Below, in pieces: positions 16,069-60,903 of a stretch of 64,000 nucleotides of DNA. Origin of the DNA: Dictyobacter aurantiacus (GTDB taxonomy: Bacteria; Chloroflexota; Ktedonobacteria; Ktedonobacterales; Ktedonobacteraceae). The notes under the pieces were generated by a model. The model was not told the DNA's origin, searched no databases, and saw only the letters and a list, made by a program, of their open reading frames with translations. How positions within the stretch are numbered: the stretch's first letter is position 1; the number at the start of each line of letters is the position of its first letter. The position numbers and the translations under genes were made by a program. The stretch covers positions 1,550,001 through 1,614,000 of the forward strand of contig NZ_BIFQ01000002.1 of NCBI RefSeq assembly GCF_003967515.1, given 5' to 3'.

Positions 16069-16069
16069 C

Positions 16070-32315: not shown

Positions 32316-33443
32316 TTATGCACTCACAGGTGCATCAGTTCCCGTCTGCCCGACGGTACTGAGAGCCTTGTTTAAAATGTTCACAGCGGCATTGTGATCC
32401 CGATCCATTACCAATCCACAGGCAGGGCAGATATGTGTGCGTACGCTCAGGCTCTTCTTGACGAGCGTGCCGCATCCACTACAGTTCTGGCTGGTGAAGT
32501 GTGGTACCACCTTCACAACTGGAATGTCGTGCATCGCTCCGTAGTAGTTGACCCATTGGAGGAAGTGTCCCCAACCGGCATCATTGATACTCTTGGCAAG
32601 GTGCCGATTGCGCACCATATTGACAATCTTCAAGTCTTCATAGGCAATCAGGTCGTGAGACGTGACGAGCGCGTTCGCCTCTTTGCGGGCAAAATCCTCA
32701 CGCTGCCTTTGGACTTTCAAATGTGCTTTGGCGACTCGTTGGCGGGCTTTCTTCCGATTGTTGCTTTTCTTTGCGGTGCGAGACAAACGGCGTTGCAGTT
32801 TCTTGAGTCGTTTTTCTGCCTTGCGATAGTGGCGCGGGTTCTTTATCGTGTTGCTATTGGAGTCGGTGTAGTAGGCTTTGAGCCCCACATCGATACCAAC
32901 CGTTGCGCCGGTCATCTCATGCTCAATGACCCGATGTGCCTGCACCGCAAACTGGGCATAGTACCCATCTGCCCTGCGGATCAGACGCAGCCGCTTGATT
33001 TGTTTGATGGGGAACGTTTCAATGTCACGTGTTCCCACTAAACGCAGACGACCTATGCCACACCCATCGATCAAGGTAAGATGCCTGCCATCAGGCTCTA
33101 ACTTCCATCCAGTCTGCTTGTATTCAACGGAGCGATTATCATGCTGGAAACGGGGATAGCCCTTCTTCCCAGGTTTCTTGGCTTTGCAGTTGTCATAGAA
33201 ACGTTGAATAGCATTCCACGCACGATCGGCAGCCGCTTGACGAGCCTGAGAATTGAGAGGGTTGGCGAAGGGAAACTCTTTGGCAAGGACGGCGCAATAC
33301 TTCTGCAAGTCATTCTTGGTGGCGTGGTCGTCCATCCAGAGACGGAGACACGTGTTACGAATGAACTGGCAGACACGAATCGCTTCATCAATGGCGGCAT
33401 ATTGTGCCTTATTGCCATCAAGCTTGTATTCGTGGATCAGCAT
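32316..33443 (-). CDS. tnpB: TnpB RNA-guided nuclease (IS605 type)
   Basis: 375 residues with all RuvC residues in place: GIDVGLKAYYTD (Asp), IAYEDLKIVNM (Glu) and DRDHNAAVNI (Asp). The C-terminal zinc ribbon is complete (CSGCG and CPACG). AAAGGA lies 11 bases before the start. A strong promoter overlapping a palindrome lies upstream and is shared with the divergent RHH gene, so expression is probably repressed by that product. No transposase accompanies it. Confidence 0.95.
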   Translation of the reverse strand: MLIHEYKLDGNKAQYAAIDEAIRVCQFIRNTCLRLWMDDHATKNDLQKYCAVLAKEFPFANPLNSQARQAAADRAWNAIQRFYDNCKAKKPGKKGYPRFQHDNRSVEYKQTGWKLEPDGRHLTLIDGCGIGRLRLVGTRDIETFPIKQIKRLRLIRRADGYYAQFAVQAHRVIEHEMTGATVGIDVGLKAYYTDSNSNTIKNPRHYRKAEKRLKKLQRRLSRTAKKSNNRKKARQRVAKAHLKVQRQREDFARKEANALVTSHDLIAYEDLKIVNMVRNRHLAKSINDAGWGHFLQWVNYYGAMHDIPVVKVVPHFTSQNCSGCGTLVKKSLSVRTHICPACGLVMDRDHNAAVNILNKALSTVGQTGTDAPVSA

Positions 33444-38100: not shown

Positions 38101-39318
38101 TTAAATGGAGGGATCGATCGCGATAGCTGGCAGGGTATTGGTATCAAGCTCATAGGTATCGACTAGCCAGCCGGTGCCTCCCATTGGGGCGTTGGAGCCC
38201 TGTCTCTGTGGCAAGATTCGTACTAAGATCACCGCCATATGATGGATAAGCGGTTGACCGGTAGCAGGGTCGGTTTGGAGTTGTTCTATGCGTTTGCCGC
38301 TGGCTGGATCGATCTTCGATTGAAGCAGTTCAAATGTAACAGAGATCCAGGCAAATGTGTGTTGCTTTCCCAGCACCTGGACGACCTGAAAGTGAACGAG
38401 AGTTGGCTGAGCATTGACTACCTGCTGAATGATTTTGCCAGCCTGGATTTTATTGTAGAGCGTATTGTTGATCATGCGCACGTCATTATGGACAAAGCGG
38501 AATTGTCCTCCTGGCGTGAGTAGGAATGTTGAGCCGGTGAGCGTTCCACTATGGTGTGCTGGAGTTCCGATGTTACGGTAGTCGTAGCTCATCTCTCGAT
38601 CGGTAAAGGTGGTGCCCGTACGGAGCGCTTCTAGCGCATCTCCTAACGTGAGACCTGCGTTTGTCCATCCAAACTGGTTGAGGCGTTGTGGTGATGGAAG
38701 TGTTCCTGCAGGTGAATTGTCAGGCCCTTGTGTTCCTTGTGGTGATGGAGCAGGCGCAGGAGTTGCTGGTGGTGCTGATGGATGCGTTGGTGTTGCTTTT
38801 TGTGCTGGTGGCCGTTGTGTGGGCTTTGATACTGCTGTTGAGGACGTTCCTCTTGTCGTTGGTGTGTGCGTACTTGTGACGTGTATCGCTTCTGGAGGAG
38901 GAGTCGACTGAGCAAACACGAATAAGCTGGCACCAATGATGGTAATGAGAACAACGCCTCCGATGAGAACGACTTTGAGCAACTGAAACGACCCCCAGCG
39001 TTTTTTCCCTGGTGATGTCGTTGCTGGCGGTGGCGTGCTGGTTGCTCCCTGCTGATGTGTCTGTATTGTTGCCATGGTTGGCATTGCTCCGGAAGGCTGG
39101 AATGGGAGCACAAATGGCGAACTCTGATCTGCCTGGTCGTCTTGCTCATCCACCTGAGGCAAATGGAGATCAAGATCATCTTCCTGCGTATAGAACAGCG
39201 ATTGCTTCCCTGAGGGGGGCGTTTTTTCTTCCTGCGGCGGTTGTTGGGATCCAGACATCGACGGTATCGGCGTGAAAACAGTGTGATCTTGTGCGTTTTC
39301 TGGTGGTGTTTGTTGCAT
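38101..39318 (-). CDS. Single-pass membrane protein with Pro/Thr-rich stalk
   Basis: 405 residues from the ATG behind AAGGAG. Residues 1-110 are acidic, Gln/Pro-rich and presumably cytoplasmic; residues 111-136 are one membrane helix; residues 140-205 are a Thr/Pro/Ala-rich stalk; residues 210-405 form a soluble beta-rich domain (GGQFRFVHNDVRMINNTLY, HFQVVQVLGKQHTFAWISVTFEL). The layout (one helix, flexible linker, NTF2-like-sized domain) resembles VirB8/TcpC-type components of conjugation machines, but no sequence motif proves this. I do not recognise a named family. Convergent with the C26-like gene. Confidence 0.7.
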   Translation of the reverse strand: MQQTPPENAQDHTVFTPIPSMSGSQQPPQEEKTPPSGKQSLFYTQEDDLDLHLPQVDEQDDQADQSSPFVLPFQPSGAMPTMATIQTHQQGATSTPPPATTSPGKKRWGSFQLLKVVLIGGVVLITIIGASLFVFAQSTPPPEAIHVTSTHTPTTRGTSSTAVSKPTQRPPAQKATPTHPSAPPATPAPAPSPQGTQGPDNSPAGTLPSPQRLNQFGWTNAGLTLGDALEALRTGTTFTDREMSYDYRNIGTPAHHSGTLTGSTFLLTPGGQFRFVHNDVRMINNTLYNKIQAGKIIQQVVNAQPTLVHFQVVQVLGKQHTFAWISVTFELLQSKIDPASGKRIEQLQTDPATGQPLIHHMAVILVRILPQRQGSNAPMGGTGWLVDTYELDTNTLPAIAIDPSI

Positions 39319-39549
39319 CGTAGCTCCTTCTTTCTCCAGGATATATGGCGTTTCCATGGTGGAGATCAGGCGACACGCGATTCTGGCGTATCTGCCCTCA
39401 GCTTTTTGTTTTCATAGATAAGTCTACTGAGCAGAGCGCAGAAGTGAGGATGCAGATGATGGGTAGTGGTGGAGTAGGCGGCTGTTAGGGAGGTGTAGGG
39501 TAGCGAGCGGTAGGGTCCAGTGCCTTTCAAGTTGTTTGCTCGCATAGAT

Positions 39550-42746: not shown

Positions 42747-44558
42747 TTAATGGGTGCTGTGAGGCGTGCTCATGCTTTTGTTTGTGACCTCTTTGGATCT
42801 GGCTTGAACGTGCCCCTGTTGCTGGGTTGAGCGTTGAAATGAGAAGCGATAGGCATTAGTGGTCTTTTTGGCTTCGGCCACATCGTTTTCGGTGTCCTTG
42901 TCTGGCTTCCAGGTGCCTTCGCTGAGGGTTGACATGCGTTCTTTGAATGCGAGATAGACCTGGTCGATCATGTCAGGATTGCCAAGCATGCCCAGCTCGA
43001 CGACACAGCGCCGCATGGCACGAGCAGCCCTGATGACGCGCTCGCCGTCTTTGCCAGCTCGATAAGCGAACTTTACTTTTTGGTCCCAGCGCGTGTTGAT
43101 CGAATACATAGCATAGTCATAGAACAGTTGCGCTGCCCTGCCAATATGGTGCCTGCGTTGCTCTTCGTTGTGTTCTATGGAAAGGTTGTTGTCGAAGACG
43201 TTTCTGCCCAGGGCGCTTTCATGGTTGGCCATGATCAGTAGCGCATCCAGGTACTTGTCGCGGTAGAGGGTCACAGGCTCTTTAACCCAGGAGCCAAATT
43301 CTTCTGGAAATTTCTCCAGCAGCGATTGGATGAGATCACCTGGATAGGCACCGATGAGGTTTTGGCAGGCGTGTATGACCCAGTCCGGCATGGTGCCATC
43401 AAGCTTTTCATCCAGCAGCCCTTCTTTGCGTGCAACTTTGATCGGATTGTAGTGTTCTTCAATCTTATCAAGGTCAATGACTCGACAGGATGGGTGAAGC
43501 GAGTAAAATCCAGACTCGTTGCTGAAGAAATCAATGTCACCTGTGACAGGATGGCCATTCTTTTCCAATTCTTTGACGGCACGATCTAAATCCTGACGAA
43601 GGTAGCGTTTGGCCGCGTCAAAGACCTCTCCCAGTTGATCGGCATTCATATCGCGCCGTTTTCCACGGGCGATTGCATAGGTCAGGACTTTATCGCGGTC
43701 GACGGCATTTCCTCTTCGCCAGGCGATGTAGGCAAGTTGAATCAGGCGGATCGCGTGCTCTCCCTTGCGCAGCTTGACTTCTACCTGCGTTCCGTCATCT
43801 GCCTGTATCCAGCAGCGCATCTGTTTGAGGAGTGTCAATGTAACTGGTGTGGGCGTCGAAGTAGACTGTTTGAGTATCTGTGGAGAAAATACTGGTTGCG
43901 CTTCCTTTGGTTCCTCTGTGCGCTGTAGTTCTTTCTGCTGTTCTTCTGCATGCTGTAGTTCTTCCTGCTGTGCAGGCGCGCTCAGGGGTTGTGGTGGCAA
44001 GGCCTGCTCTGGCGAGGGAGTTCCTGTATGCTCATCATGCTCGCTGTTCGTTTCTTCTTCTGTGTGATTGACGTTCTCAGACCAGTCAGGGTTTGTCATG
44101 GGCAATGGTGTTGTTGGAAGGGTGTCCCACTGCCAGGGATCGGTTGGATCCAGTTGAAAGAGTGGAGGGACCGCTACACGTTTTTGTCTGATCCATGCTT
44201 CTGGGTGGCGTGTGTGCGGTGTGACGAATTGTGCTTCTATAGAGTGAGGGAGTTGATGAGTGGTATCTGAAGACGGCGTGGCGAGGAGCGTATGTTCTGT
44301 GTTCTTGCGTGAGAAGAAAAACTGCTCGCCTAGTGACAGAAGCACCCAGATCCACCCGCCTGTGAGGAGGAAACTGAATAGCGGTGAAAGGAGCCTGGCG
44401 ATGATGGCTGTGCGCACTGGCAGCGAAAAGTGAGAGAACTGACCAAGCAGTGGTATTGTTGGGAGAGAGAGCCGAACCGTGAAGACAACAGCCATAAAGA
44501 GTCCGACCATTCCTGCAATCATCAGAGAGGTTCGAGCATGCATGCTGTCTTGAGGCAT
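42747..44558 (-). CDS. Two-helix membrane protein with large cytoplasmic domain (BTAD-like?)
   Basis: 603 residues from the ATG behind AAAGGA. Two N-terminal membrane helices (about residues 11-30 and 56-75) are followed by a Glu/Gln-rich region (residues 150-240) with coiled-coil character. A conserved-looking helical part follows with CWIQADDGTQVEVKLRKGE, LIQLAYIAWRRGNAVDRDKV and YLRQDLDRAVKEL. The last part looks like the winged helix plus tetratricopeptide-type activator domain of SARP regulators. Similar two-helix/activator architectures occur in actinobacterial conjugative elements, so a signalling or transfer role is possible. Family not firmly recognised. Confidence 0.6.
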   Translation of the reverse strand: MPQDSMHARTSLMIAGMVGLFMAVVFTVRLSLPTIPLLGQFSHFSLPVRTAIIARLLSPLFSFLLTGGWIWVLLSLGEQFFFSRKNTEHTLLATPSSDTTHQLPHSIEAQFVTPHTRHPEAWIRQKRVAVPPLFQLDPTDPWQWDTLPTTPLPMTNPDWSENVNHTEEETNSEHDEHTGTPSPEQALPPQPLSAPAQQEELQHAEEQQKELQRTEEPKEAQPVFSPQILKQSTSTPTPVTLTLLKQMRCWIQADDGTQVEVKLRKGEHAIRLIQLAYIAWRRGNAVDRDKVLTYAIARGKRRDMNADQLGEVFDAAKRYLRQDLDRAVKELEKNGHPVTGDIDFFSNESGFYSLHPSCRVIDLDKIEEHYNPIKVARKEGLLDEKLDGTMPDWVIHACQNLIGAYPGDLIQSLLEKFPEEFGSWVKEPVTLYRDKYLDALLIMANHESALGRNVFDNNLSIEHNEEQRRHHIGRAAQLFYDYAMYSINTRWDQKVKFAYRAGKDGERVIRAARAMRRCVVELGMLGNPDMIDQVYLAFKERMSTLSEGTWKPDKDTENDVAEAKKTTNAYRFSFQRSTQQQGHVQARSKEVTNKSMSTPHSTH

Positions 44559-44726
44559 GTCTATGATTCCTTTCACTGAGAGGGGCATATCTATCGGTGT
44601 ATTTCTTGAGTAGAGCACTATATGGATGGTCCCTATTGAAATTCATTCTTTTGTGGTACAGGTTTATTGATCATAACTATACTTTCCTATATGTTACACT
44701 GGGGTTTTTGGATAGTCTGTAAAATA

Positions 44727-44840: not shown

Positions 44841-47800
44841 TCAGCTCAATCCAGGAAGCTTTTTCCCAACGATGAGCCTTTCTTTGAAGCCGACCAGGTG
44901 ATCTTGCTGGTGGAAAATAACGGCGCGAGCAAGGACACGGCTCATATCCTGGAACGATGCGGCAGCAATCCAGCTCTGTGTCTGTAAAACGGTAGTGGTT
45001 AACCCCAGGAGTTGTGGTTGCGCTCTTACTGGACTACCTCCCTGGGAGAGGATATCGGCAACACACTGTTGGAAGGTAAAGCGATCGATGAGGGAGCCCG
45101 GGAGAAGATGCGTGTCGCCTGCATCGGTGACGCGGACATAGCGCATCATTTGCCTGAGAATAACCTCGAAGTGCTTATCATGCACGATGGCTCCAGTTCC
45201 ACGATAGATCTTTTGTATTTCCTGGATCAAGTAGCGTTGGGTCATGTCCGATCCCAGCACCTGAAAAATGTCCTGGGGATGAAGTGGGCCTTCGGCCAGG
45301 GGCGTTCCTGGTACAACATGTTGCCCCTCCATCACAGTGAGCTTTCGCTTCAGCGGGATACGGGTGCTCCATTCCTCTTGCTCTCCGTGTGGTGATACGA
45401 AGTGAAGGAGATAGTCGCCTGTTCCTGCATCTGTGGCTATTGTCGCCACGATGCCATGTCGCTCCGCTATTGGCGCGGCTTGCGCTGGCATATGGACTTC
45501 AAAGAGGTCATCGACCCGAGGGAGGCCCAGCGTAATGTCGGCTGCATTGTTGGCAATCCCACCCGAATGAAAGGTTCTCATGGTGAGTTGCGTGCCAGGC
45601 TCTCCAATCGCCTGCCCCGCCAGAATACCAACGGCAACGCCTTTTTGAACGAGTGTGCCTGTCGCCAGATCAGACCCATAACACTGCTGACAGATGCCAT
45701 ATGTTGCCTGGCACGTAAGAGGTGTACGGACGAAGACGTGCTCGACGCCAGTGGCGAGAAGTTCATCAACGAGTGTTTTGTTCAGCAGGGTACCTGCGGC
45801 GACATGCCCTGTGTGTTCCGCCAGCACTCGCCCCATGATGGTGCTGCGCATATCTGGCAGCCCGTTCCGGCGACACGTATCGTTGCTGATGAGCAGGCCA
45901 TCCGTGGTGCGGCAGTCTTCCTGGGTGATGATGACGTCCATCCCGGCTTCGACCAGGCGTCGCGTCAGATAGCCAGACATGGCCGTATTGAGACTTCGAT
46001 CCATAAATCCTTTGCGTGCACCCGATGCCGCGATAAAAATCTCCCAGACAAGCAGGCCATGCAGGTAATTGGAGAGAACCGGGATCGGTAGGACCTTTCC
46101 TGAAGGGCTTGCCATCAGTCCACGGATGCCGCTCAGCTGCCGTATCTGCTGAAACTTGGCCTTGGTTGCGCCTGACTTCACGATGGTCATGATCGTGCCA
46201 AATGGATCAAGGGCATCGCTTACTTTTCCGCTGATCTCATCAGTAATAGCGGTCCAGGTGGCAATGACGTGGCGGTACCATTCATCATAGGTGACCTCGC
46301 CGGCATGGTGGCGAGCATCTATCTCTGCGACCTGTGTGCGCCCGTGATCAATCAACGTTTCTCGCTCTGGTGGGGTGGTGATATCACTGAGTGCAAAGCT
46401 GATGCCGCTCCTGGTGGCATAGTGAAAACCGATCCGTTTCATGTCATCAAGCAGACGCGCGGTTTGTTCTTCCCCGCACTGTGAAAGACATTCGGCAACC
46501 AGTGCTTTCAAGGTTTCCTTTGTCTGAGGATAATTGCGGTACCCGCATGGCTCAGGAAGCATGTCATTGAAGAGCAGGCGTCCGACGGTCGTTTCAACGC
46601 GTCCACGTGCTGGATGTTCGGGGTTTGCAGGAGGAGGGGCCATATACACAGGGATATCACCCATGCGTATGATGATGGGGGTATGCAGATCGATATACCC
46701 AGCCTCGTGTGCGAGCAGTGCCTCATTGCGATCGGTGAAGAGACGTCCAGCTTTTTTGGGAGTCGGTCGCTCTTCTGTGAGATAGAAGCAGCCAAGGACG
46801 ATATCCTGACTCGGGGTGATGACAGGATCACCGGAGGCGGGATGGCGCACATTGCGGGTTGAGAGCAGCAGACGGCGTGCCTCTTGTTGCGCTCTTTGGG
46901 AGAGTGGAACGTGCACGGCCATCTGATCACCATCGAAATCGGCATTAAATGCTGCGCATACCAGTGGATGCAGTTGAATGGCTTTTCCCTCAACGAGCCG
47001 TGGTTGAAAGGTTTGAATGCTCAGGCGATGTAGCGTCGGCGCACGGTTGAGTAGCACCAGACGTTCGAAGAGCACTTCATCGAGTACATCCCACATCTGC
47101 GTGTTCCGGCGTTCAACCATGCGTTTGGCCGTTTTTGGGCTGGAGGCATAGTGATGATCCAGGAGTTTTCCAATCAGAAAGGGCTTGAAAAGTTCACAGG
47201 CCATTTCTTTTGGCAGACCACATTCATGCAGCTGGAGTTGTGGTCCTGCCACAATCACCGAACGGCCAGAATAATCCACCCGCTTTCCGAGCAAGTTGCG
47301 GCGGAATCGACCCTCTTTTCCCTGTAACACATCGGTGAGACTCTTCAATGGCCTGTGACGAGCATCGGTCACCTTTTTTTTTGCATGGGCGTTATCGAAG
47401 AGCGCCTGGCAGGCTTCCTGGAGGAGACGGCGTTCGTTATTTAATAGCGTGTCCGGTGCGTTGTGTTCCAGGAAGTGCTTCAAACGGTTATTGCGATGCA
47501 GAACGCGACGGTAGAGGTCGTTCAAATCCGAAGAGGCTATGCGTCCCCCATCCAGGACAAGAATCGGTCGGAGTTCAGGCGGAAGAACTGGAATAGCGGT
47601 AAGAATCATCCATTCTGGTCGTTGTTTGGATCTGCGAAACGCCTCAACGACATGCAGACGCCGGATCGCTTTCTTCGTATTGATCCCCGCTGTAGTTATC
47701 TCTGTGTGAAGTTGTGTTGCCAGGGCATCCAGGTCAAGCGTGCGTAAGAGATCAAGCATCGCTTCGGCGCCTGTTTTTGCCTCAAAGGCACCTGGGAACA

Positions 47801-48344
47801 GGGAGGATAAGGTATGATATTGCTCCACATTGAGCAGATCACCAACCGTGAGTGTCTGCAGGTGCTGGTATGCTTCCGCCTCCTCTGGATCCTGCGTGTC
47901 TGAGATATGATGGTGCTCATGGCTGCGCTGCGTTTCATTAATGTGGAGGACGATAGAGCGCTGATACCCCAGGAGCGCTGTGACTTGCCAGGGTGAGAGG
48001 TTCAGCAGGAGGCCAATGGTACGCTTATACCAGGGATGCACGATGGGTGCTGCGAGATCAATATGCCCCATCCGTTCTCTGCGAACAGTTGCCGGCGCCA
48101 GCTCCACGCCACAGGTGCGACACACGAGGCCAGCCTGACGCCTGTATTGATATTTTCCACATGCGCAGGACCAATCACGTGTGGGGCCAAAGATGCGTTC
48201 GCAGAAGAGACCATCTTTGACCGGCTGTTGTGTGCGATAGTTGATGGTGTCCGGTTTGGTGACCTCACCATGGCTCCAACGATGGATATCTTCGGGGCTG
48301 GCCAGGCCGATGCGCAGTGCAGCGATCGTATTGGCATTTCTCAT
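44841..48344 (-). CDS. Orphan RNA polymerase beta' subunit paralogue (RpoC-like)
   Basis: 1167 residues, close to full bacterial RpoC length. The start is at ATG 48344 (behind GGGGAG), giving the normal N-terminus LRIGLASPEDIHRWSHGEV. The zinc site has C60, C62, C75, C78. The catalytic NADFDGDQMAVHVPLS has Asp469, 471 and 473. Trigger-loop MRTFHSGG is present near residue 920. The second zinc region is TCQATYGICQQCYG. The bridge helix carries unusual changes (GARKGFMDRSLNTAMSGYL), and the C-terminus ends at KLPGLS where normal RpoC continues. No rpoB lies nearby. The gene overlaps the winged-helix gene by ATGA. It is most likely an accessory paralogue that forms an alternative polymerase with the housekeeping subunits, or a decoy; the chromosomal rpoC should exist elsewhere. 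Confidence 0.93.
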   Translation of the reverse strand: MRNANTIAALRIGLASPEDIHRWSHGEVTKPDTINYRTQQPVKDGLFCERIFGPTRDWSCACGKYQYRRQAGLVCRTCGVELAPATVRRERMGHIDLAAPIVHPWYKRTIGLLLNLSPWQVTALLGYQRSIVLHINETQRSHEHHHISDTQDPEEAEAYQHLQTLTVGDLLNVEQYHTLSSLFPGAFEAKTGAEAMLDLLRTLDLDALATQLHTEITTAGINTKKAIRRLHVVEAFRRSKQRPEWMILTAIPVLPPELRPILVLDGGRIASSDLNDLYRRVLHRNNRLKHFLEHNAPDTLLNNERRLLQEACQALFDNAHAKKKVTDARHRPLKSLTDVLQGKEGRFRRNLLGKRVDYSGRSVIVAGPQLQLHECGLPKEMACELFKPFLIGKLLDHHYASSPKTAKRMVERRNTQMWDVLDEVLFERLVLLNRAPTLHRLSIQTFQPRLVEGKAIQLHPLVCAAFNADFDGDQMAVHVPLSQRAQQEARRLLLSTRNVRHPASGDPVITPSQDIVLGCFYLTEERPTPKKAGRLFTDRNEALLAHEAGYIDLHTPIIIRMGDIPVYMAPPPANPEHPARGRVETTVGRLLFNDMLPEPCGYRNYPQTKETLKALVAECLSQCGEEQTARLLDDMKRIGFHYATRSGISFALSDITTPPERETLIDHGRTQVAEIDARHHAGEVTYDEWYRHVIATWTAITDEISGKVSDALDPFGTIMTIVKSGATKAKFQQIRQLSGIRGLMASPSGKVLPIPVLSNYLHGLLVWEIFIAASGARKGFMDRSLNTAMSGYLTRRLVEAGMDVIITQEDCRTTDGLLISNDTCRRNGLPDMRSTIMGRVLAEHTGHVAAGTLLNKTLVDELLATGVEHVFVRTPLTCQATYGICQQCYGSDLATGTLVQKGVAVGILAGQAIGEPGTQLTMRTFHSGGIANNAADITLGLPRVDDLFEVHMPAQAAPIAERHGIVATIATDAGTGDYLLHFVSPHGEQEEWSTRIPLKRKLTVMEGQHVVPGTPLAEGPLHPQDIFQVLGSDMTQRYLIQEIQKIYRGTGAIVHDKHFEVILRQMMRYVRVTDAGDTHLLPGSLIDRFTFQQCVADILSQGGSPVRAQPQLLGLTTTVLQTQSWIAAASFQDMSRVLARAVIFHQQDHLVGFKERLIVGKKLPGLS

Positions 48345-49162
48345 GGTTTCTCCCCTTTCCGCATCGAGATGCACGCATTGTCATTTCCTGAGCAGGGATG
48401 TGTCTGAACAGCGAGGTGAGGGTGGTTCCATCTCTGGTGTGGTTGGAAGGGAGAGGAGATAATGCTGATTTTTCGTGCGATCGCCTGTGTTGTGAGGGCG
48501 GCAACGATGGCGCGTGCTGTTCGCAGTCGTTGTTCTTCCTTGCCTGAGGCATAATACCAGAGCGCTGTATAATAGGGCGTTCCATCATCGGTGTTGTGGG
48601 CGAGCTGCTCACATATATGCATCACAACCTGTTCATCGGTTCCTACCAGGCGGATCATCACATGAATAGCGATTCGTTGGCCCGAGTCTGTGAGTAGCTC
48701 TGCTGTTGGGAGCAAAGACTCGCGGGGCTTTGTTGCAGCCTCCTTGAGTTGTTGCCGACTTCGCCATGTTGCCTGTGGATACTGCTCGGTAAGCAGAAGG
48801 CGAATTGCATTGCTCGCTGAGAGGAATGGGAGCACATGACGACCAGGACGTTTCCACGGCGCAGTTGAACCAAGCATACGTACGCCCTTTTTGGTGAGCC
48901 ATATCCAGCCTGGTTGACCCTGCTCAATCTGCTCCAGATTGAGCAGGCCTTCTCGTTGGAGATGCTCGATACGGTTATGGATACTGCTTTTTGAAGGGAA
49001 TGGACGATGCCCTTGTGATCCTCCCTCGCATGCCGTGATGAAACACATCATCTGATCGATTCTGATCGCTCGTTGCTGCAGTACGAGTGTTAATATAGAT
49101 GCATTCCGGGGATCCGGATGTCTCAGTTGCTTTTCTTCCAGTGATTGGTTCGGGGTGATCAT
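48341..49162 (-). CDS. Winged-helix protein, replication-relaxation-like, coupled to rpoC-like gene
   Basis: 273 residues from the ATG 10 bases after AGGAGG. N-terminal helices ILTLVLQQRAIRIDQMMCFI and SKSSIHNRIEHLQREGLL, then a wing PGWIWLTKKGVRML, match the winged-helix layout of replication-relaxation family proteins (PF13814) found on integrative elements. The central part (ATWRSRQQLKEAA, LTDSGQRIAIHVMIRL) resembles that family's second half. Its TGA overlaps the ATG of the RpoC-like gene (shared bases 48341-48344), so both proteins are made together and probably act together. Confidence 0.7.
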   Translation of the reverse strand: MITPNQSLEEKQLRHPDPRNASILTLVLQQRAIRIDQMMCFITACEGGSQGHRPFPSKSSIHNRIEHLQREGLLNLEQIEQGQPGWIWLTKKGVRMLGSTAPWKRPGRHVLPFLSASNAIRLLLTEQYPQATWRSRQQLKEAATKPRESLLPTAELLTDSGQRIAIHVMIRLVGTDEQVVMHICEQLAHNTDDGTPYYTALWYYASGKEEQRLRTARAIVAALTTQAIARKISIISSPFQPHQRWNHPHLAVQTHPCSGNDNACISMRKGEKP

Positions 49163-49670
49163 AGAAGCATAACCTCCTGTACATGGGCGAGTTGCCCTCT
49201 GCCTGTGCATGTCTCCAGATGCCTCGCTGATTGGTAGGTTCGTTGCTGTCAGGGATTGCTGATCATCCAGCGTTGCGATCTGGATCACGAACGTGTTCCA
49301 CTTTTTCCCTCACCACCAGCATAGAAAATCCGTCCTCTGAGAACAGGGGCAGATAATATACCAGTAGAGAGGCAACAGAGAGGTAGGGTGTGGATGGAGG
49401 AGTTAGATGAGAGGGATCTCGTGTATAGCATAAGGGGCAGAATGGAAATACATCGCTCGAATGAGCAAGCTATCTTATGCACCAGGAGTAGGAGCAGGCC
49501 GCTATCCGCTGGTGAGGGGGGCTGTTACCTTGTTCGTACTGGATGAGAAACGCACTCTTGGATGGCTTGCCTATGGCTGCACGGTGTTGCCATGCGCATC
49601 TGCGCCTGTGGATTTCTCCATCTGGGACAAGGAGTGTTCCCAGATGGCTATGGTGTTTCATGAGGCACGG
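49163..49670. other. Intergenic region upstream of winged-helix/rpoC-like operon
   Basis: No convincing gene. It should hold the promoter of the minus-strand operon. An inverted repeat GCATAAG (about 49428) / CTTATGC (about 49473) encloses a smaller GCTC/GAGC repeat. Reading frames of under 100 codons here show no family pattern. Confidence 0.4.
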
Positions 49671-51171: not shown

Positions 51172-51727
51172 TTAAGAGGGCAATGTTGGGAGGGTCACGG
51201 TGAGCCCTGCACCACCTGCTTGATCAGGTGGTACTCTATTGATGCTGACCGTTCCTTTAATTTCGGAGACGCGGCTCAGATTGGAAACAAAAACCATGTC
51301 CGTGAATGCTACAGGGCCCGGTGATGCCTGGCTGGCACGCGCTCCGATGGTGATGCTGACGGGTTGGTGGGTGTCTGGTGAAGTGAGAATTCTTCCCCAT
51401 TCACTATGGCAGGTTGGCGAATATCTCCGCTGGAGAGTTGCTAACATCTGCCCCTGACCATCAGGGATTTCGTGGAATGCGATGGTCTGTGCGTCTTGGT
51501 AGCATCCCTGTATCATGGGATCCTGGTTGGTATAGTGTGGTGCTGTGGGATCGGATGCACAGAGCCCCTGGAATTGGCCAGGCTATCGTTCCTGCTGCGT
51601 GAGCAGAGGGCGCGAGCAGCATATCAGGGATGCTGCCTATCAGCAACAATACGACTATAATGGGTAGCATCTTGATGGCCATGCGGATGTGAAGAACTGA
51701 CAGCTGTGTTGTTCCCATGGTGCTCAT
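51172..51727 (-). pseudogene. DUF2690 secreted protein, frameshifted
   Basis: Two overlapping minus-strand frames make one gene. The first (from 51727) gives a signal peptide, LPIIVVLLLIGSIPDMLL ending in APSAHAAG. The second continues from about 51582 with SDPTAPHYTNQDPMIQGCYQDAQT, LQRRYSPTCHSEWGRI and a beta-rich tail. The family pattern QDP-x-QGC ... RYSP-C identifies DUF2690. The frame change lies around the segment encoding WPIPG. Either a real frameshift or an assembly error; the rest is intact. Confidence 0.75.
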
Positions 51728-51761
51728 AGTGTAAGTACCTTTCGATTATCTCTGTGCTTTG

Positions 51762-52117
51762 CTAGACGGGGATCGTTATGGGTTGTGTTTGGCCTTTGAG
51801 GAAAAAAGCGCCTGCCCAGTTCGTTGGGCGAACGTTCGGGAGTGTAAAAACCATATCCGTGATGGCACTGGTTTGCCTTCCATCTGCGAGGACTATGCGT
51901 TTGACGTCTTCTACTCGGCCGTTCTGAAAAGAAATAACCGCATCTATCGCTGCTACCTGCTGCTGCGCACTGGCATAGGCAAGTGTACTGATCCAATAGG
52001 TCTTGCAGATCGCCGAATGCAAGAAACTGACGCCGCCAATCAGCTCATTTTGGGCTGTGAAGACGGATTGGAGTTCAATGATGTGACTGTCTTGCATACA
52101 TCCTTGTGTGACAGGGT
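51762..52117 (-). pseudogene. DUF2690 secreted protein, 3' half, split by TnpB element
   Basis: Encodes HPVTQGCMQDSHIIELQSVF through CKTYWISTLAYASAQQQV to a normal end, QTQPITIPV. It corresponds to the middle and C-terminal parts of the intact paralogue at 53893 and joins in frame to the 5' half at 53647 once the element is removed, giving AVCEQQN-PVTQGC. An ATG in the element (52145) would make a protein without signal peptide. Confidence 0.82.
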
Positions 52118-52171
52118 GGAAACTAGTTTTAAATTTTGTAGCCATTTCTCGTCTTTTGATGGCCTTTATCC

Positions 52172-52200
52172 TTGATGTTATGGGGTACATGGGGTACAAT
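52172..52200 (+). promoter_or_regulatory. Promoter of RHH-tnpB operon with tandem operator repeats
   Basis: TTGATG (52172-52177), a 17-base spacer and TACAAT (52195-52200). Two perfect tandem copies of ATGGGGTAC (52180-52188, 52189-52197) fill the spacer and touch the -10 box, a typical arrangement for an RHH repressor. The ATG at 52207 falls where transcription should begin, so the message is probably leaderless. Confidence 0.6.
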
Positions 52201-52206
52201 GACTCC

Positions 52207-52401
52207 ATGGAAAAAGAGCGGGTTACCACGAAAATATGGCGGCATTCTTTACACAAACTCAAAATTGCTGCCGCTACGAATAATGTGTCTATGATTGATC
52301 TGTTAGAACGTCTCATCGACCAGGAGTACGAAAAAACGAAAGGGAGGGACCCCGGACATGCAGGTGATACGCGGATACAAGACCGAGCTGGACCTGAATA
52401 A
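52207..52401 (+). CDS. Ribbon-helix-helix small protein upstream of tnpB
   Basis: 64 residues. RVTTKIWRHSLHKLKIAAA followed by NNVSMIDLLERLIDQEYEK gives the strand-helix-helix pattern of CopG/Arc-type repressors; the tail is out of pattern because it overlaps the tnpB start by 44 bases. The start is at ATG 52207, since no ribosome site is visible for it or for longer options and the promoter lies directly before it. It probably represses its own promoter and thus tnpB. Confidence 0.72.
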   Translation: MEKERVTTKIWRHSLHKLKIAAATNNVSMIDLLERLIDQEYEKTKGRDPGHAGDTRIQDRAGPE

Positions 52402-53494
52402 CGCGCAAAAAACCGCGTGTTTGCAGCATGCCGGAGCCTCTCGATTTACGTATAACTGGGGGTTGAAGCGGTATGAGGAAGAGTACAAAGCGGGCCGGAA
52501 AGCGCCAAGCGCAATGAGCCTGCATAAAGAACTCAATGCCTTGAAACAGACCCATTTTCCCTGGATGTATACCGTCTCCAAGTGCGCGCCGCAAGAGGCA
52601 TTGCGCAACCTGGAGAAGGCATTCAAACAGTTCTTCGGGAAGGTAAAACTCAAGGCCCAGGGCACATATCGGGGGAAGCTCGGGTATCCTCGATGGAAGA
52701 GCAAGAAGAGAGGCATTGGCTCTTTTCGCTTGACGGGAGCGATCCACGTCTTTGAGGACCGTATTCAGCTTCCACGCCTCGGTACATTACGACTGCACGA
52801 GCACGGGTATATCCCAACAAACGCCAAGGTGTTATCGGCAACCGTCTCTGAGCAAGCAGGCCGCTGGTTTGTGAGCGTGCAGGTCGAGGAATACGGTTCG
52901 GACCCGGTTCTGGCCACTGGCCCCGCTCTTGGGATTGATCTAGGGGTTAAGGCTATGGCGACTGCCTCTGACGGCACGATCATCGCCAACCCGAAAGCCC
53001 TGCGTTCCAACCTGAAAAAGCTGAGACGGGCATCACGCCAGCATTCTCGGAAACAAAAAGGCAGCAAAAATAGAGCAAGGGCGACCCGTAAGCTTGCTCG
53101 TTTGCATGCCCATATAGGCAATATTCGCAAGGATGCACTCCATAAAGCGACCTCGCAGTTGGTGATGAAAACCAAGTCATCAAGTGAGAGGCCCGCTGTG
53201 ATTGTGCTAGAGGACCTCAACGTCTCGGGAATGCTCAAAAATAGAAGATTGAGCCGCGCCATTGCCGATGTTGGCTTCTACGAATTTCGCCGTCAAATGC
53301 TCTATAAAGCCGAGCAGACGGGTTGCAAGGTGGTCCTGGTTTCTCGCTGGGAGCCATCAAGCAAGACCTGTTCAGGGTGCAAAGCGGTCCGAGAAGAACT
53401 TGATTTACGTGAGCGAACCTTTTTGTGCCACGCCTGCGGCCTGGTCTTAGACCGAGATTTGAACGCGGCGTATAATCTGGCTGCGTTAGCATGA
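52358..53494 (+). CDS. tnpB: TnpB RNA-guided nuclease (IS605 type)
   Basis: 378 residues, start behind GGGAGG and overlapping the RHH gene. RuvC residues are complete: GIDLGVKAMAT (Asp), IVLEDLNVSGM (Glu), DRDLNAAYNL (Asp). The zinc ribbon has CSGC and CHAC pairs. N-terminal MQVIRGYKTELDLNNAQ is the normal family start. It differs clearly from the tnpB at 32316 and from the IS607-type ones, so four separate TnpB lineages or copies lie in this window. Confidence 0.95.
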   Translation: MQVIRGYKTELDLNNAQKTACLQHAGASRFTYNWGLKRYEEEYKAGRKAPSAMSLHKELNALKQTHFPWMYTVSKCAPQEALRNLEKAFKQFFGKVKLKAQGTYRGKLGYPRWKSKKRGIGSFRLTGAIHVFEDRIQLPRLGTLRLHEHGYIPTNAKVLSATVSEQAGRWFVSVQVEEYGSDPVLATGPALGIDLGVKAMATASDGTIIANPKALRSNLKKLRRASRQHSRKQKGSKNRARATRKLARLHAHIGNIRKDALHKATSQLVMKTKSSSERPAVIVLEDLNVSGMLKNRRLSRAIADVGFYEFRRQMLYKAEQTGCKVVLVSRWEPSSKTCSGCKAVREELDLRERTFLCHACGLVLDRDLNAAYNLAALA

Positions 53495-53646
53495 CCTGAG
53501 GAGTACCCTGAGTTACAGGGGATTTAAAGCTTGTGGACAGGACGGCTCTGGCTGGGTAGAAATACCCGGTGAAACTGCCCTGGTCGAAGCAAGAACAAGA
53601 CAGCAAATGTAGCTTGTCTATGTTTGTCTAAGTTCTTGATAACGGT
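53495..53646 (+). ncRNA. Candidate guide RNA (omega RNA) and right end of the element
   Basis: After the tnpB stop, GGGTAGAAATACCC forms a hairpin, followed by CTGGTCGAAGCAAGAA, a form common at the 3' end of TnpB guide-RNA scaffolds. The terminal inverted repeat CAAGAAC...GTTCTTG follows. The guide would be read from DUF2690 sequence beyond 53646. Confidence 0.5.
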
Positions 53647-53848
53647 TCTGCTGTTCACATACTGCCTGCTGCGTTCCATGGGTTGATGCGCACGTGATCG
53701 CTGCATGAGCACGGGAGAACAATGAAACGTCGGAGACATGCAACAGCTGGCTTCCAAAGAACACAAGCAGAGTGGTGAGGCAGGCAATCACAAGCAGGAG
53801 AATCATATGGGCAGGCTGTGTACGTTTTCTTCGTGGTGTGATAATCAT
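53647..53848 (-). pseudogene. DUF2690 secreted protein, 5' half, split by TnpB element
   Basis: From the ATG nine bases after AAGGG. It encodes a basic start, the signal-anchor HMILLLVIACLTTLLVFFG, a signal-peptidase-like site SRAHAA and the mature start ITCASTHGTQQAVCEQQN. The frame then enters the element and stops at 53618. The 3' half is at 51762-52117. Confidence 0.82.
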
Positions 53849-53892
53849 TCGTTTCATTTCCCTTTCCAGAAGCATTTGATGCGTATAGGTGA

Positions 53893-54477
53893 TTATGTGT
53901 GAGCTTGTACAGAAACGGTGAACGATCGCGATTTTCCAACGAGATCAAAACTGCCTGATCCAGCATGTGGGGAGATCGGCGCTGTAGTCATATCTGACCA
54001 GGCAGCATAGGCAAAAGGAGTACCAGCAAATGTGGGTGTGCCGGTGATGTCTTCTGTTGTATGATTGTGGAAGAGCATTATGGCGTGGATCGCTTTAAAA
54101 ATTCCCGACCTGGTCACAAAGGCAGTTGTACGGACCCAATACGCCTTGCAGGTTGGTGAGTAACGCAGCTCAACGTCACCCAGCGGTTTAGTCTGCTCTG
54201 TATCCTGAAAAACGGTTTGGAGATCGAGGCTTTCTGCATCGATAACGCACCCCTGGGCAATCGGATCCTGGTGTTCGCATAGAGCCTGTTGTGTACCCCT
54301 GGTGGTTGCACAGGTTGTCGCAACCGAGTTCGTTGCAGCGTGAACGGCATTTATGAACGGCGCTACTTTTTGGCTGTGGATTGCTATGGTTCCTGTGATG
54401 AGCATGAGCGTGGTGACAAGACTGCTCCCAAGGATGATCAGCGTTCGTTGGGTGTGATGCTGTTTCAATACGATCAT
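53893..54477 (-). CDS. DUF2690 secreted protein, intact
   Basis: 194 residues from the ATG behind GGAAAGGAAA. Signal peptide (LIILGSSLVTTLMLITGTIA ... AVHAAT), then the family core: CATTRGTQQALC, QDPIAQGCVIDAES, LRYSPTCKAYWVRT, and a beta-rich end. Cys residues suggest disulfides outside the cell. The family occurs in actinobacteria and Chloroflexota with unknown function. It is the only undamaged member of the three-gene tandem array here. The upstream 243 bases hold no other gene. Confidence 0.82.
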   Translation of the reverse strand: MIVLKQHHTQRTLIILGSSLVTTLMLITGTIAIHSQKVAPFINAVHAATNSVATTCATTRGTQQALCEHQDPIAQGCVIDAESLDLQTVFQDTEQTKPLGDVELRYSPTCKAYWVRTTAFVTRSGIFKAIHAIMLFHNHTTEDITGTPTFAGTPFAYAAWSDMTTAPISPHAGSGSFDLVGKSRSFTVSVQAHT

Positions 54478-54720
54478 TGTCGCTTTCCTTTCCATGTGAG
54501 ACTGACAGATGTTGTATGACTGAGGTACTTGCTCTTCCCAGCGTAGTTTGCAGATACCGTTGGAACAGGAGAAGCTATGGTGTTCATACGGGGGGAGGTG
54601 AGGAAGAGGTATGGTGATGAGAGGAAGGTAAGCCAGGGAGAGAAAAACATACCGCCCTTATTCTGGTTTGTGTATTGAGGCTACCCAAATCCCGGCAGAG
54701 ATAGAGAGAGGAATGAAGCT

Positions 54721-59095: not shown

Positions 59096-59665
59096 AGCCA
59101 GTATGCCAAACAACAAGGGATTAGCTATCGGACCGCGTTACGCTGGTTTCGAGCTGGAACCATCCAAGGGTATCAGGCTCCATCAGGCACGATCATCGTG
59201 ACGGAAAGCCGCGAACCAGCGCAAGCCGTTCCGAAAGTGGCGATTTATGCGCGCGTTTCTTCCTCAGCGCAGCGGGCGGATTTAGAACGGCAAGCAGAAC
59301 GGGTAGGCCAGTATTGTACGGTACGCGGGTACCACGTGGCACTGGTGGTCAAAGAGGTTGCTTCGGGCGTCAATGACAACCGCCCGAAACTGCTGAGTCT
59401 TTTGAAGGATACGAGTATCACGCGGGTGGTTGTAGAACACCGAGACCGTCTCACTCGTTTCGGTTTCCAGTACATTGATGCGCTCTTTTCTGTGCAGGGC
59501 CGGGTGATTGAAGTGGTCAATCCCGCTCACAACGATACCGAAGAATTGCTGGCTGATTTGACCAGTATTATCTATTCGTTTTGTGCTCGACTGTACGGAC
59601 AACGGAGAGCCAAACGCAAAACGGAGAACGTTGTGCAAGCGTTGCGGAAACGGGAGGATGCTTGA
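59096..59665 (+). pseudogene. tnpA: IS607-family TnpA with disrupted start
   Basis: From 59102 the frame encodes YAKQQGISYRTALRWFRAG, matching the helix-turn-helix of the other TnpA, but the codon six bases earlier is TGA and the old ATG (59092) is now out of frame: a loss of a few bases compared with ATGAAACTCAGTGACTATGC of the other copy. The recombinase domain is intact (IYARVSSSAQRADLERQAER, GVNDNRPK, RLYGQRRAKRK). A GTG at 59198 could start a protein of 155 residues without the DNA-binding domain. Probably inactive in transposition. Confidence 0.78.
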
Positions 59666-60903
59666 TGCGGCTCGTTGAACGTCATCTCGTTCGCACAACT
59701 GATCCACGCTTTGCCGCCATTGATGCGGCGGCGTTTGCATCCAAAAACCTGTACAATCAAGCCAATTATCAGATCCGGCAAACCTACATCTCTCATGGGA
59801 AGTATCTGTCCTATGCTGACGTTTTTCACCTCGTCAAGGGCATGGACTGCTACAAAGCGTTGCCAGCCAAGGTCGCCAATTCCATTCTCATCCTCCTGCA
59901 TAAGAACTGGGTGTCGTTCTTTGAAGCCTTGGAGGCATTCCAAACGGAGCCCTCTCGCTTCACCGGACGCCCCCGGCTTCCCAGGTACAAGGACAAGGCA
60001 AAAGGACGCAACATCTTGATCTATGACACCCAGGCTCTGGGCAAACGCGCGTTCAAGAAAACAGGCAAGCTGATCCCTTCAGGATTACCCATCGAGATTG
60101 AGACCTCGGTCACCGAGTGGTGGCAACTGGCCCAGGTACGTATCGTGCCGCGTGCAGATGGGTACATGATAGAAGTCGTGTATGAGCAGCAGGAAGAGCA
60201 AGCTGACGTGGATACGAAGCTCGTCGCGGCCCTTGATCCTGGCGTCAATGTCCTTGCAGCTCTCACCAGCAACAAACCCGGCTTTGTCCCTCGCCTAGTG
60301 AGTGGCAAGCCCCTCAAAAGCCTTAATCAGCAGTACAACAAACGTCGTGCTCAGCATCAAAGCCGCTTGAGCCACGAAAAACGATTCACCTCGCGCCATC
60401 TGGATCGCGTGACGACGAAGCGCAATCGCCGTGTGGACAGCTATCTGCACACGGCAAGCCGTCGCATCATTGATCTGCTGGTGGAAGAGGGCATCGGCGT
60501 GCTCGTGATCGGCAAAAATCCCCTCTGGAAGCAGGAAGTGAACCTGGGAAGCAAAAACAATCAGCAATTTGTGCAACTTCCCCATGCTCGTTTCATTGAG
60601 CAATTGGCCTACAAGGCCCAACTCGTAGGAATTCAGGTGATCATCCAAGAAGAGAGCTATACAAGCAAAGCGAGCTTTCTGGATAACGATCCTCTTCCAA
60701 CGTATCAAGCCAATCGTTCTGAAAGGCCCATATTTTCAGGCAGGCGTATTGCGAGAAGTTGGTATCGCGCCAGTGATGGAACCATCATTCATGCCGATAT
60801 CAATGGGAGTTGGAACATTCTCCGAAAAAGTAACTCCGACCTTTTGCAATTGGGGCGAGGAGTAGCGGGCGCGGCAGTTCGCCCAAGACGGCTGGCCGTC
60901 TGA
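59665..60903 (+). CDS. tnpB: TnpB RNA-guided nuclease (IS607-type, rearranged active site)
   Basis: 412 residues; ATG overlaps the tnpA stop by one base and follows GGGAGG. RuvC-I is ALDPGVNVLAAL and RuvC-III HADINGSWNI. The RuvC-II segment is VIGKNPLWKQ with no Glu at the usual place; candidates for a relocated Glu are KQEV and QEESYTSKASFLD. No zinc ribbon. Close homologue of the TnpB at 27944. Confidence 0.9.
   Translation: MRLVERHLVRTTDPRFAAIDAAAFASKNLYNQANYQIRQTYISHGKYLSYADVFHLVKGMDCYKALPAKVANSILILLHKNWVSFFEALEAFQTEPSRFTGRPRLPRYKDKAKGRNILIYDTQALGKRAFKKTGKLIPSGLPIEIETSVTEWWQLAQVRIVPRADGYMIEVVYEQQEEQADVDTKLVAALDPGVNVLAALTSNKPGFVPRLVSGKPLKSLNQQYNKRRAQHQSRLSHEKRFTSRHLDRVTTKRNRRVDSYLHTASRRIIDLLVEEGIGVLVIGKNPLWKQEVNLGSKNNQQFVQLPHARFIEQLAYKAQLVGIQVIIQEESYTSKASFLDNDPLPTYQANRSERPIFSGRRIARSWYRASDGTIIHADINGSWNILRKSNSDLLQLGRGVAGAAVRPRRLAV

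Follow-up and report, generated by a model that had tools for sequence, protein, structure and literature searches.

Bacteria are usually taught as having one RNA polymerase core. Why, then, does Dictyobacter aurantiacus, a member of the Ktedonobacteria, carry a second gene for the catalytic beta' subunit of RNA polymerase, and which DNA would that subunit serve? We analyzed a stretch of 64,000 nucleotides (the window), which spans bases 1550001-1614000 of C2 (NZ_BIFQ01000002.1), the 2.75-Mb replicon of a two-contig genome of 8.88 Mb. The window holds a second rpoC that belongs to a clade separate from the housekeeping genes, is under purifying selection, and shares an altered bridge-helix signature with its relatives. 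Within its subclade (group A), the gene is linked to a conjugation-type operon and to a downstream gene that we call D, and a search of 41 genomes with PF00562 found no RpoB match inside the element regions around the paralogs. The gene and its main functional sites are as follows (aa, amino acids).

44841..48344, minus strand: rpoC paralog, group A of the Ktedonobacteria clade; intact beta' subunit of 1167 aa
48108..48167, minus strand: zinc-binding domain motif CACGKYQYRRQAGLVCRTCG, aa 60-79; cysteines retained, equivalents of R67 and K71 substituted
46920..46946, minus strand: catalytic motif NADFDGDQM, aa 467-475
45966..46025, minus strand: bridge helix SGARKGFMDRSLNTAMSGYL with the clade signature MDRSLNTA, aa 774-793
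45681..45713, minus strand: second zinc site, aa 878-888
45558..45617, minus strand: trigger-loop region GQAIGEPGTQLTMRTFHSGG, aa 910-929

The initial annotation had described an orphan beta' subunit of 1167 residues here, with an intact zinc site and NADFDGDQM loop, an altered bridge helix, and a shortened C-terminus, and each of these points agrees with what we found. The gene's coordinates are correct, and it lies on the minus strand: across 44841-48344 the plus strand is broken up by stops. The open reading frame (ORF) is already open at a GTG at 48374; the ATG at 48344, which is preceded by the purine-rich stretch GGAAAGGGGAG and shares bases with the stop codon of the upstream gene (an ATGA overlap), gives the 1167-aa protein. 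This protein scores 1362 against the NCBIfam model rpoC_TIGR (cut-off 963.5) and matches five Pfam Rpb1 models, with domains 1, 2, 3, and 5 above the cut-off and domain 4 at 23.1 bits versus 24.8. Compared to housekeeping RpoC, it lacks the C-terminal tail and most of an insert after residue ~150, which is largely gone in the rest of group A as well.

A protein search of the same genome returned the window gene and one other rpoC. The other is the housekeeping gene, which encodes 1444 aa and sits directly behind rpoB on the larger replicon; depending on the segment, its product shares 45-57% identity with the window protein. The annotation had suggested looking for just such a second rpoC beside rpoB, and its presence on the other replicon leaves the identification of the window gene as a paralog standing. 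The nearest rpoB on the window's own replicon is ~860 kb from the paralog, so the housekeeping arrangement of adjacent rpoB and rpoC is not found there.

To see how widespread such genes are, we surveyed this genome and 40 relatives. Extra rpoC loci numbered 13 in 10 of the 41 genomes, and all 10 are among the 25 genomes of the same family. They are the window's genome (G000), bacterium brp13 (G003, three loci), Dictyobacter kobayashii (G004), Tengunoibacter tsumagoiensis (G010), Ktedonospora formicarum (G011, two loci), Ktedonobacter sp. SOSP1-85 (G023), Thermogemmatispora carboxidivorans (G024), the metagenome-assembled genomes G012 and G014, and G015. This count excludes a short and very divergent RpoC-like match in D. 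kobayashii. Three genomes cannot be judged: G006 and G032 had no RpoC match at all, and G009 had a fragment. The paralog of G012 ends at a contig end. In a sample of 121 Chloroflexota genomes, of which 115 had a match (E threshold 1e-250, up to four candidates scored per genome), we found no clear second RpoC outside the family. One of the other Chloroflexota, G058, has two incomplete RpoC fragments, each at the end of a different contig (L139:70-2241 and L140); they share 86% DNA identity over 897 bases, which could reflect a second gene or mixed strains.

In an IQ-TREE phylogeny of 33 proteins (without L015 and L045), the 11 extra RpoCs form one clade with support of 100/100, which is divided into subclades A (including the window protein) and B. 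The paralogs fall outside the housekeeping sequences, and support for a single housekeeping group is weak (68/45). The second tree has 34 rows, including eight paralogs and 11 other Chloroflexota (of 16 loci tried, these 11 gave a usable ORF); it omits L015, L043, L044, L045, L049, six housekeeping rows, and one other-phylum row. Here the paralogs again form a clade (100/100). When this tree is rooted on the other phyla, the paralogs stand beside the housekeeping RpoC of their own family, with support of 100/98 for the dividing branch. Both trees came with a long-branch warning (L046 with L048) and with unlike composition in several paralog rows. From these sequences, the paralogs appear to stem from an old duplication of rpoC within the family, on long branches whose joining point differs between the trees. 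The annotation had named placement among the order's housekeeping RpoCs as the outcome that would speak against a paralog; instead, the window protein lies outside them in a long-branched clade of its own.

The group-A copies are strongly constrained. By the NG86 method, eight pairs from G000, G003, G004, and G010 have nonsynonymous divergence (dN) of 0.098-0.170, synonymous divergence (dS) of 1.14-1.87, and dN/dS of 0.07-0.09, which implies purifying selection. For the window gene versus the D. kobayashii copy, dN is 0.136 and dS is 1.58. Two of the brp13 copies (G003a and G003b) are nearly identical (dN = 0.005, dS = 0.02), and one further pair was saturated for dS.

Which parts of the protein have changed? 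Across 18 housekeeping RpoCs and 4 from other phyla, 424 alignment columns are invariant, and the window protein keeps 333 of the 420 that it covers. In all five full-length group-A sequences, 46 invariant columns are altered, two of them partly by gaps. The catalytic NADFDGDQM is present in all 12 aligned paralogs. In the bridge helix, the aligned paralogs have MDRxLNTA (MGRSLNTA in G015), as compared to ADTALxTA in the housekeeping and other-phylum sequences displayed. In E. coli numbering, which we anchored on A779 and G782 as given in passages of PMC4029172, these changes correspond to A784M and T786R, with residue 789 altered as well. When we searched 84,980 species genomes with a DNA pattern for this signature, it matched 11 stretches, all from Ktedonobacteria. 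This number equals the 13 loci minus that of the window's genome, which the tool may skip, and minus that of G015, whose helix departs from the pattern. Other changes affect the zinc-binding domain, the surroundings of the GRRGRA and HPVLLNR segments, and the C-terminal end; from this last region, the PAG motif has disappeared in group A. In the zinc-binding domain, the equivalents of R67 and K71 are invariant in the 22 comparison RpoCs; in place of R67, the five full-length group-A proteins have Y, Y, G, H, or K.

If the paralog serves a mobile element, as the initial annotation suggested, then its neighbors should tell. We compared the ORFs of 12 paralog regions (13-124 kb each). At seven of the eight assembled group-A loci (G000, two in G003, G010, G011 C9, G015, and G024, but not G004), a conserved operon lies upstream of rpoC on the same strand and in the same gene order: a VirB4-like ATPase, a second ATPase with transmembrane (TM) segments, and a Replic_Relax protein. 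Together with the near-identical copies in brp13 and the broken copies elsewhere, this operon supports the annotation's suggestion. In the window's genome, the operon is outside the window:

C2:1644110-1653539, same strand as rpoC and upstream of it: conjugation-type operon

The VirB4-like ATPase has about 940-1030 aa (it is split into two ORFs in G011). The G000 protein (L075:15133-18204) matches a conjugal-transfer model with E = 2.8e-44 and 151.5 bits (equivalog cut-off 325) and matches DUF87 above its cut-off. The second ATPase (~1040 aa) has VirB4/TraD matches at E = 0.03 only, and its G024 homolog matches the PADLOC model mad8 (E = 1e-11). The Replic_Relax protein has ~630-710 aa and matches PF13814 above the cut-off in G000 and G024; its role as a relaxase is predicted. 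Six of the loci also encode a multi-TM protein, and five encode a two-TM, pilin-sized protein of 82-99 aa, of which the 86-aa member has a TrbC match below the cut-off.

The gap between the Replic_Relax gene and rpoC varies: 0.3 kb in G024, 1.5 kb (one gene) in G015, 8.8 kb in G010, 12.4 kb in G011, 17.9 kb in G003a, 45.7 kb in G000, and 56.7 kb in G003b, with insertion sequence (IS)-type and accessory genes in between. We also examined the linkage with a profile of the second ATPase, built from G024, G015, and the group-B locus of G003, in 25 genomes that exclude G024. Seven matches scored above 1300 bits, two of which are members of the profile, and the next best had 929 bits. All seven are on the same strand as a paralog and within about 59 kb of it. 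D. kobayashii has no operon within 28 kb of rpoC; its sole ATPase match (794 bits) is more than 1.1 Mb away, and its rpoC and D are both broken. The four longest matching blocks between the two brp13 copies are 11.9, 4.8, 3.8, and 1.8 kb long and 96-99% identical. A divergent arm in G000 encodes a PP2C phosphatase, a Prim-Pol, and an AAA protein; relatives are found in G010 (PP2C and Prim-Pol) and in G024 (PP2C and the AAA protein), where the same area also has a DNA polymerase III beta-like gene.

Some of these neighbors match models of defense systems (mad8 as above; PD-T4-6 and mad6 with E = 1e-67 to 1e-52), and we considered a defense-system reading; however, HerA ATPases and kinases of a generic kind fit these models too. 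In group A, the neighbors of VirB4-like, pilin-sized, and Replic_Relax type favor transfer over defense, whereas for group B either reading may hold. The surroundings of group B include a kinase in G003 and G014 and nearby trehalose-type genes in G011 C3 and G023. In G003, the group-B paralog adjoins the kinase and an ATPase of the same kind, with a VirB4-like gene 16 kb further on. The kinase genes directly after group-B rpoC are L051:6070-7806 and L050:4398-6218, of which the L051 kinase matches PD-T4-6/mad6. In other loci, relatives of these kinases adjoin the second-ATPase family without an rpoC.

The closest companion of group-A rpoC is D, which in the window is the next gene down the strand:

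42747..44618, minus strand: D gene, 222 bp after rpoC; 623 aa with predicted TM segments, a disordered linker, and an OmpR-type winged helix-turn-helix (wHTH)/BTAD (SARP-like) fold

Matches to D were found in 8 of the 41 genomes, and these are the same eight that hold group-A rpoC (in G012, the match is a 33-residue fragment on another contig). D has no Pfam or NCBIfam match, and its G024 homolog has a weak match to Trans_reg_C (E = 0.011). The predicted layout has TM segments near the N-terminus, then a disordered stretch, and then a compact part. AlphaFold models reached a mean pLDDT of 60.5 for the whole protein and of 76.5, with a pTM of 0.70, for the C-terminal 356 residues. When candidate matches were aligned in a second look, the four best for both models were two AfsR and two EmbR entries, with Z of 12.3-13.3 over 246-252 residues (13.0-13.3 for AfsR 8k60, 12.6-12.8 for AfsR 8hvr, and 12.3-12.6 for EmbR). 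D is thus predicted, on the basis of these models, to be a membrane-anchored activator with an AfsR/EmbR-like fold. According to passages of PMC10936776, the SARP domain of AfsR contacts sigma region 4, the beta flap, and the C-terminal domain of alpha, and two glutamates in its helix-turn-helix loop contact R67 and R69 of the zinc-binding domain of beta'. Where residue 67 of beta' is Y or G (G000, G010, and G003a), D has a basic sequence in the matching loop (GKRRDMN or similar); where this residue is H or K (G024 and G015), the loop is acidic (DEEAT). This comparison covers the five loci where both could be read, with the loops equated by eye and without statistics; it is suggestive of co-evolution between the D loop and residue 67.

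Which beta would such a subunit pair with? The window's genome does have a second rpoB, on the same replicon:

L010:6953-10633 (G000 C2, about 732952-736632): second rpoB; 1132 of 1186 residues identical to housekeeping RpoB

It is flanked by two ClpC-like genes (named by eye) and carries D-to-E, I-to-V, and H-to-V substitutions in what is presumably the rifampicin-resistance region. Its 1132/1186 identical residues mark it as a recent copy rather than a partner as old as the rpoC paralog. We also rejected an extra rpoB as a general partner, as extra PF00562 matches in the 41 genomes are out of step with the paralog: G003, G010, and G024 have the paralog and a single RpoB match, and G008 and G020 have two RpoB matches and no paralog that we could see. 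Similarly, a search with Sigma70_r2 in six genomes showed no sigma factor in the element regions among the matches listed, and weaker ones are possible.

Since the paralog keeps its catalytic and metal-binding parts, assembly with host subunits is the most likely outcome, and the conserved catalytic parts together with the low dN/dS suggest that it forms an alternative polymerase. Because the element regions have no RpoB match and three carriers have a single RpoB, it would have to use the host's beta and, presumably, the host's alpha. (In the window's genome, a search for RpoA domains gave one match, on the larger replicon.) We propose that beta' combines with the host's beta and alpha into a hybrid polymerase that, guided by host sigma and by membrane-anchored D, transcribes the element's genes; we give this proposal an even chance. 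A conjugation-type mobile element of the Ktedonobacteria would carry the beta' gene, whose product would assemble with host beta, alpha, and omega into a hybrid core that uses host sigma. D would then recruit the hybrid enzyme to the element's promoters, partly through the reshaped zinc-binding domain of beta', and by this choice of promoters the element would gain a transcription program of its own.

Several observations weigh against this proposal. Three of the 13 paralogs are broken: the D. kobayashii copy has lost its N-terminus, the G011 C9 copy is in two frames, and the group-B copy of G023 (L049:6363-19659) is interrupted, with its final ~120 residues encoded some 9.6 kb further downstream. 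D is cut short, split, or stop-bearing in G003b, G004, and G011. These broken rpoC and damaged D copies imply that the pair is dispensable. Related operons without rpoC are found in related genomes (L096, L097, and L098), so such operons do not need it. In the window's genome, the operon is 46 kb from rpoC, with IS-type and other genes intervening, and at the other three group-B loci we found no such operon within the 13-20 kb fetched for each. Several of the operon's labels are weak (E = 0.03 for the second ATPase and a score under the cut-off for the pilin), and dS in the group-A pairs is near saturation. As for D, the alignment tool cautions that for helical arrangements a Z under about 13 may mean little, the next matches are unrelated helical proteins with Z of up to 10.6 and 11.3 (144-199 residues), and Foldseek alone found no match to the D model with E < 0.001.

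What else might the second beta' do? It could form a polymerase that serves the host, reprogramming host genes in development or stress, and merely ride on the element. There is a precedent in passages of PMC5431353, where a duplicated core subunit, rpoB(R) of Nonomuraea, alters global expression, and the kinase and trehalose-type genes around group-B copies would suit such a role. However, the patchy spread (10 of 25 family genomes), the broken copies, the near-identical pair, and the repeated linkage of group A to transfer-type genes fit an element better, and we consider a host-serving enzyme unlikely. We have slightly less belief in self-resistance by target duplication, in which the altered active center would resist an RNA polymerase inhibitor, perhaps the product of the window's own nonribosomal peptide synthetase (NRPS) cluster. 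That cluster (three large NRPS proteins and then a major facilitator superfamily exporter, window 34-22046) lies about 20-45 kb downstream of rpoC, and the second rpoB is altered in what is presumably the rifampicin-resistance region. Also, according to passages of PMC4029172, the sites of salinamide resistance in E. coli include beta' residues 775, 779, 780, 782, and 783; group A differs at the equivalents of 775 and 783, whereas in group B the 782 equivalent differs, as does that of 783 in two of the four rows. But the changes found in all paralogs (equivalents of 784, 786, and 789) are not on that list, and the high-level site 779 is kept. NRPS-type ORFs were found in just one of the 12 regions and in none of the five others that reach at least 24 kb downstream (four from group A and one from group B); what is repeatedly linked to the paralogs is the operon and D. 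This explanation is weaker than a hybrid polymerase that serves the element.

The element might instead need the hybrid enzyme for transfer itself, to make primers or early transcripts on the incoming single-stranded DNA in the recipient. Single-strand promoters of plasmids have reportedly been the subject of published papers. In G024, rpoC directly follows the Replic_Relax gene, and the divergent arm of G000 encodes a Prim-Pol; the RNA polymerase of jumbo phage AR9 can initiate on single-stranded DNA (PMC7598289). On the other hand, the element has its own primase-polymerase, and we regard this role as improbable. A decoy or poison subunit that sequesters host beta and alpha and thereby slows host transcription seems very improbable to us: competition for these subunits would be open to any folded beta', which is a general argument, and a decoy would not need catalytic motifs under strong constraint. 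Equally hard to credit is a decaying or redundant duplicate with no present role in the window's genome. Three of the 13 loci are indeed broken, but the window copy is intact over 1167 codons and the group-A dN/dS is 0.07-0.09.

We compared the proposed hybrid polymerase to known systems. In the actinomycete Nonomuraea gerenzanensis, rpoB(R) is likewise a second copy of a core subunit that leads to two forms of polymerase (passages of PMC5431353), but the subunit there is beta, and here it is a beta' that has diverged strongly and is linked to conjugation-type genes. The term "rpoC" does not occur in the main text of that paper. The jumbo phages phiKZ and AR9 likewise encode beta and beta' homologs for transcription of their own genes, as we propose for this element; as described in passages of PMC7598289 and PMC7824862, they encode both the beta and beta' parts, split into pieces, and no alpha. 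Here, in contrast, beta' comes in one piece, shares about half of its residues with the host's RpoC, and has no RpoB-domain match in its vicinity, so this is not a split set of the jumbo-phage type. In the open-access literature that we searched, we found no description of an rpoC paralog in Ktedonobacteria or on a conjugative element, which does not prove that none exists.

The Rhizobium phages RHph_TM/Y65 (as annotated) also have a long beta' on a mobile element. This protein (L135:1495-4878) has 1127 aa and is 29% identical to the window protein; its context is a phage, and its bridge helix is different (one read). It is possibly a lone phage beta': these phages are absent from the 33 phage records that match host RpoB at 1e-5, a search that could miss a divergent beta. 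We considered and rejected a phage or plasmid origin of the window protein by similarity. It matches 94 phage and 69 plasmid records; the phage records that cover nearly the whole query look like bacterial sequence in the match listing, and of the four plasmid records that we inspected, those from Clostridioides and Bacillus have an ordinary rpoB-rpoC cluster and those from Nonomuraea and Methylobacterium are unannotated there.

Among viral contigs, a peptide-pattern search found no close relatives, and the bridge-helix pattern led to one contig. This 90-kb contig from IMG/VR has an RpoC-like gene (L134:1046-4069) beside RpoB-like genes (recognized by eye). Its bridge helix, AASGARKGIMDRVLNTA, is nearly that of group A, and the proteins are only ~27% identical. 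The second-ATPase profile had no match in this contig's record, which carries little weight. Separately, D. kobayashii C1 has a miniature RNA polymerase-like set (L100:8976-12634 and 15565-16731), with an extracytoplasmic function (ECF)-type sigma factor (201 aa), an RpoB-like protein (663 aa), and an RpoC-like protein (332 aa, with QADFDGD) in a row, and a tyrosine recombinase about 3 kb away.

For D, the nearest models are the SARPs AfsR and EmbR, which have a similar arrangement of wHTH and helical parts to the one predicted in D. Unlike them, D has TM segments at its N-terminus together with a long disordered linker, and a profile of D found no SARP among the solved sequences of the PDB. 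For the operon, the same kinds of genes, a VirB4-like ATPase (the NCBIfam CD1110 family is the best match) and Replic_Relax, are found in conjugation operons at L096 and L097, and the L098 operon has no recognized Replic_Relax match. In contrast to the group-A loci, neither rpoC nor D follows these operons in the ~20 kb that we read.

A beta' paralog under purifying selection on transferable DNA would, if this is what it is, mean that a mobile element can swap the catalytic subunit of its host's polymerase. Such a takeover would be intermediate between the use of a sigma factor and the import of a complete phage polymerase. It would make several things testable: whether two beta' subunits can share one pool of beta and alpha, how catalysis and pausing respond to a natural A-to-M and T-to-R change in the bridge helix, and whether there is co-evolution between a SARP-type activator and the zinc-binding domain of beta'. 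More tentatively, we speculate that conjugative elements of the Ktedonobacteria carry a two-gene cassette, a dedicated beta' and a membrane-tethered activator with a SARP fold, that makes the host polymerase element-specific and lets it answer signals at the cell surface. In the same speculation, the match of the cassette's bridge helix (AASGARKGxMDRxLNTA) to that of the only ~27% identical beta' on the viral contig would reflect an independent, convergent solution for the active center in polymerases of mobile elements.

Two other genes of the window have relatives near paralogs.

48341..49288, minus strand: upstream gene, 315 aa; 4-nt ATGA overlap with rpoC; no Pfam match
38101..39357, minus strand: 418-aa gene further down the strand; relatives downstream of rpoC in G010 (62%) and G015 (31%)

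The initial annotation had coupled rpoC to a winged-helix protein. That label is unconfirmed for the upstream gene; the downstream gene, D, is the one with a predicted winged-helix part. Over 232-242 aa, the upstream protein shares ~50% identity with a portion of a WD40 protein at two of the brp13 copies, where the WD40 gene is upstream of rpoC with one gene in between.

The window also contains TnpB/OrfB_IS605-type genes and one resolvase followed by a related ORF (window 27647-29242, 32316-33443, 52358-53494, and 59198-60903). Two of the TnpB/OrfB_IS605-type genes have a Cas12f1-like domain according to Pfam, and the others were recognized by similarity. At window 51172-54495, there are repeated genes for mutually related proteins of 114-200 aa, whose relatives are found near rpoC in G003a, G003b, and G010.

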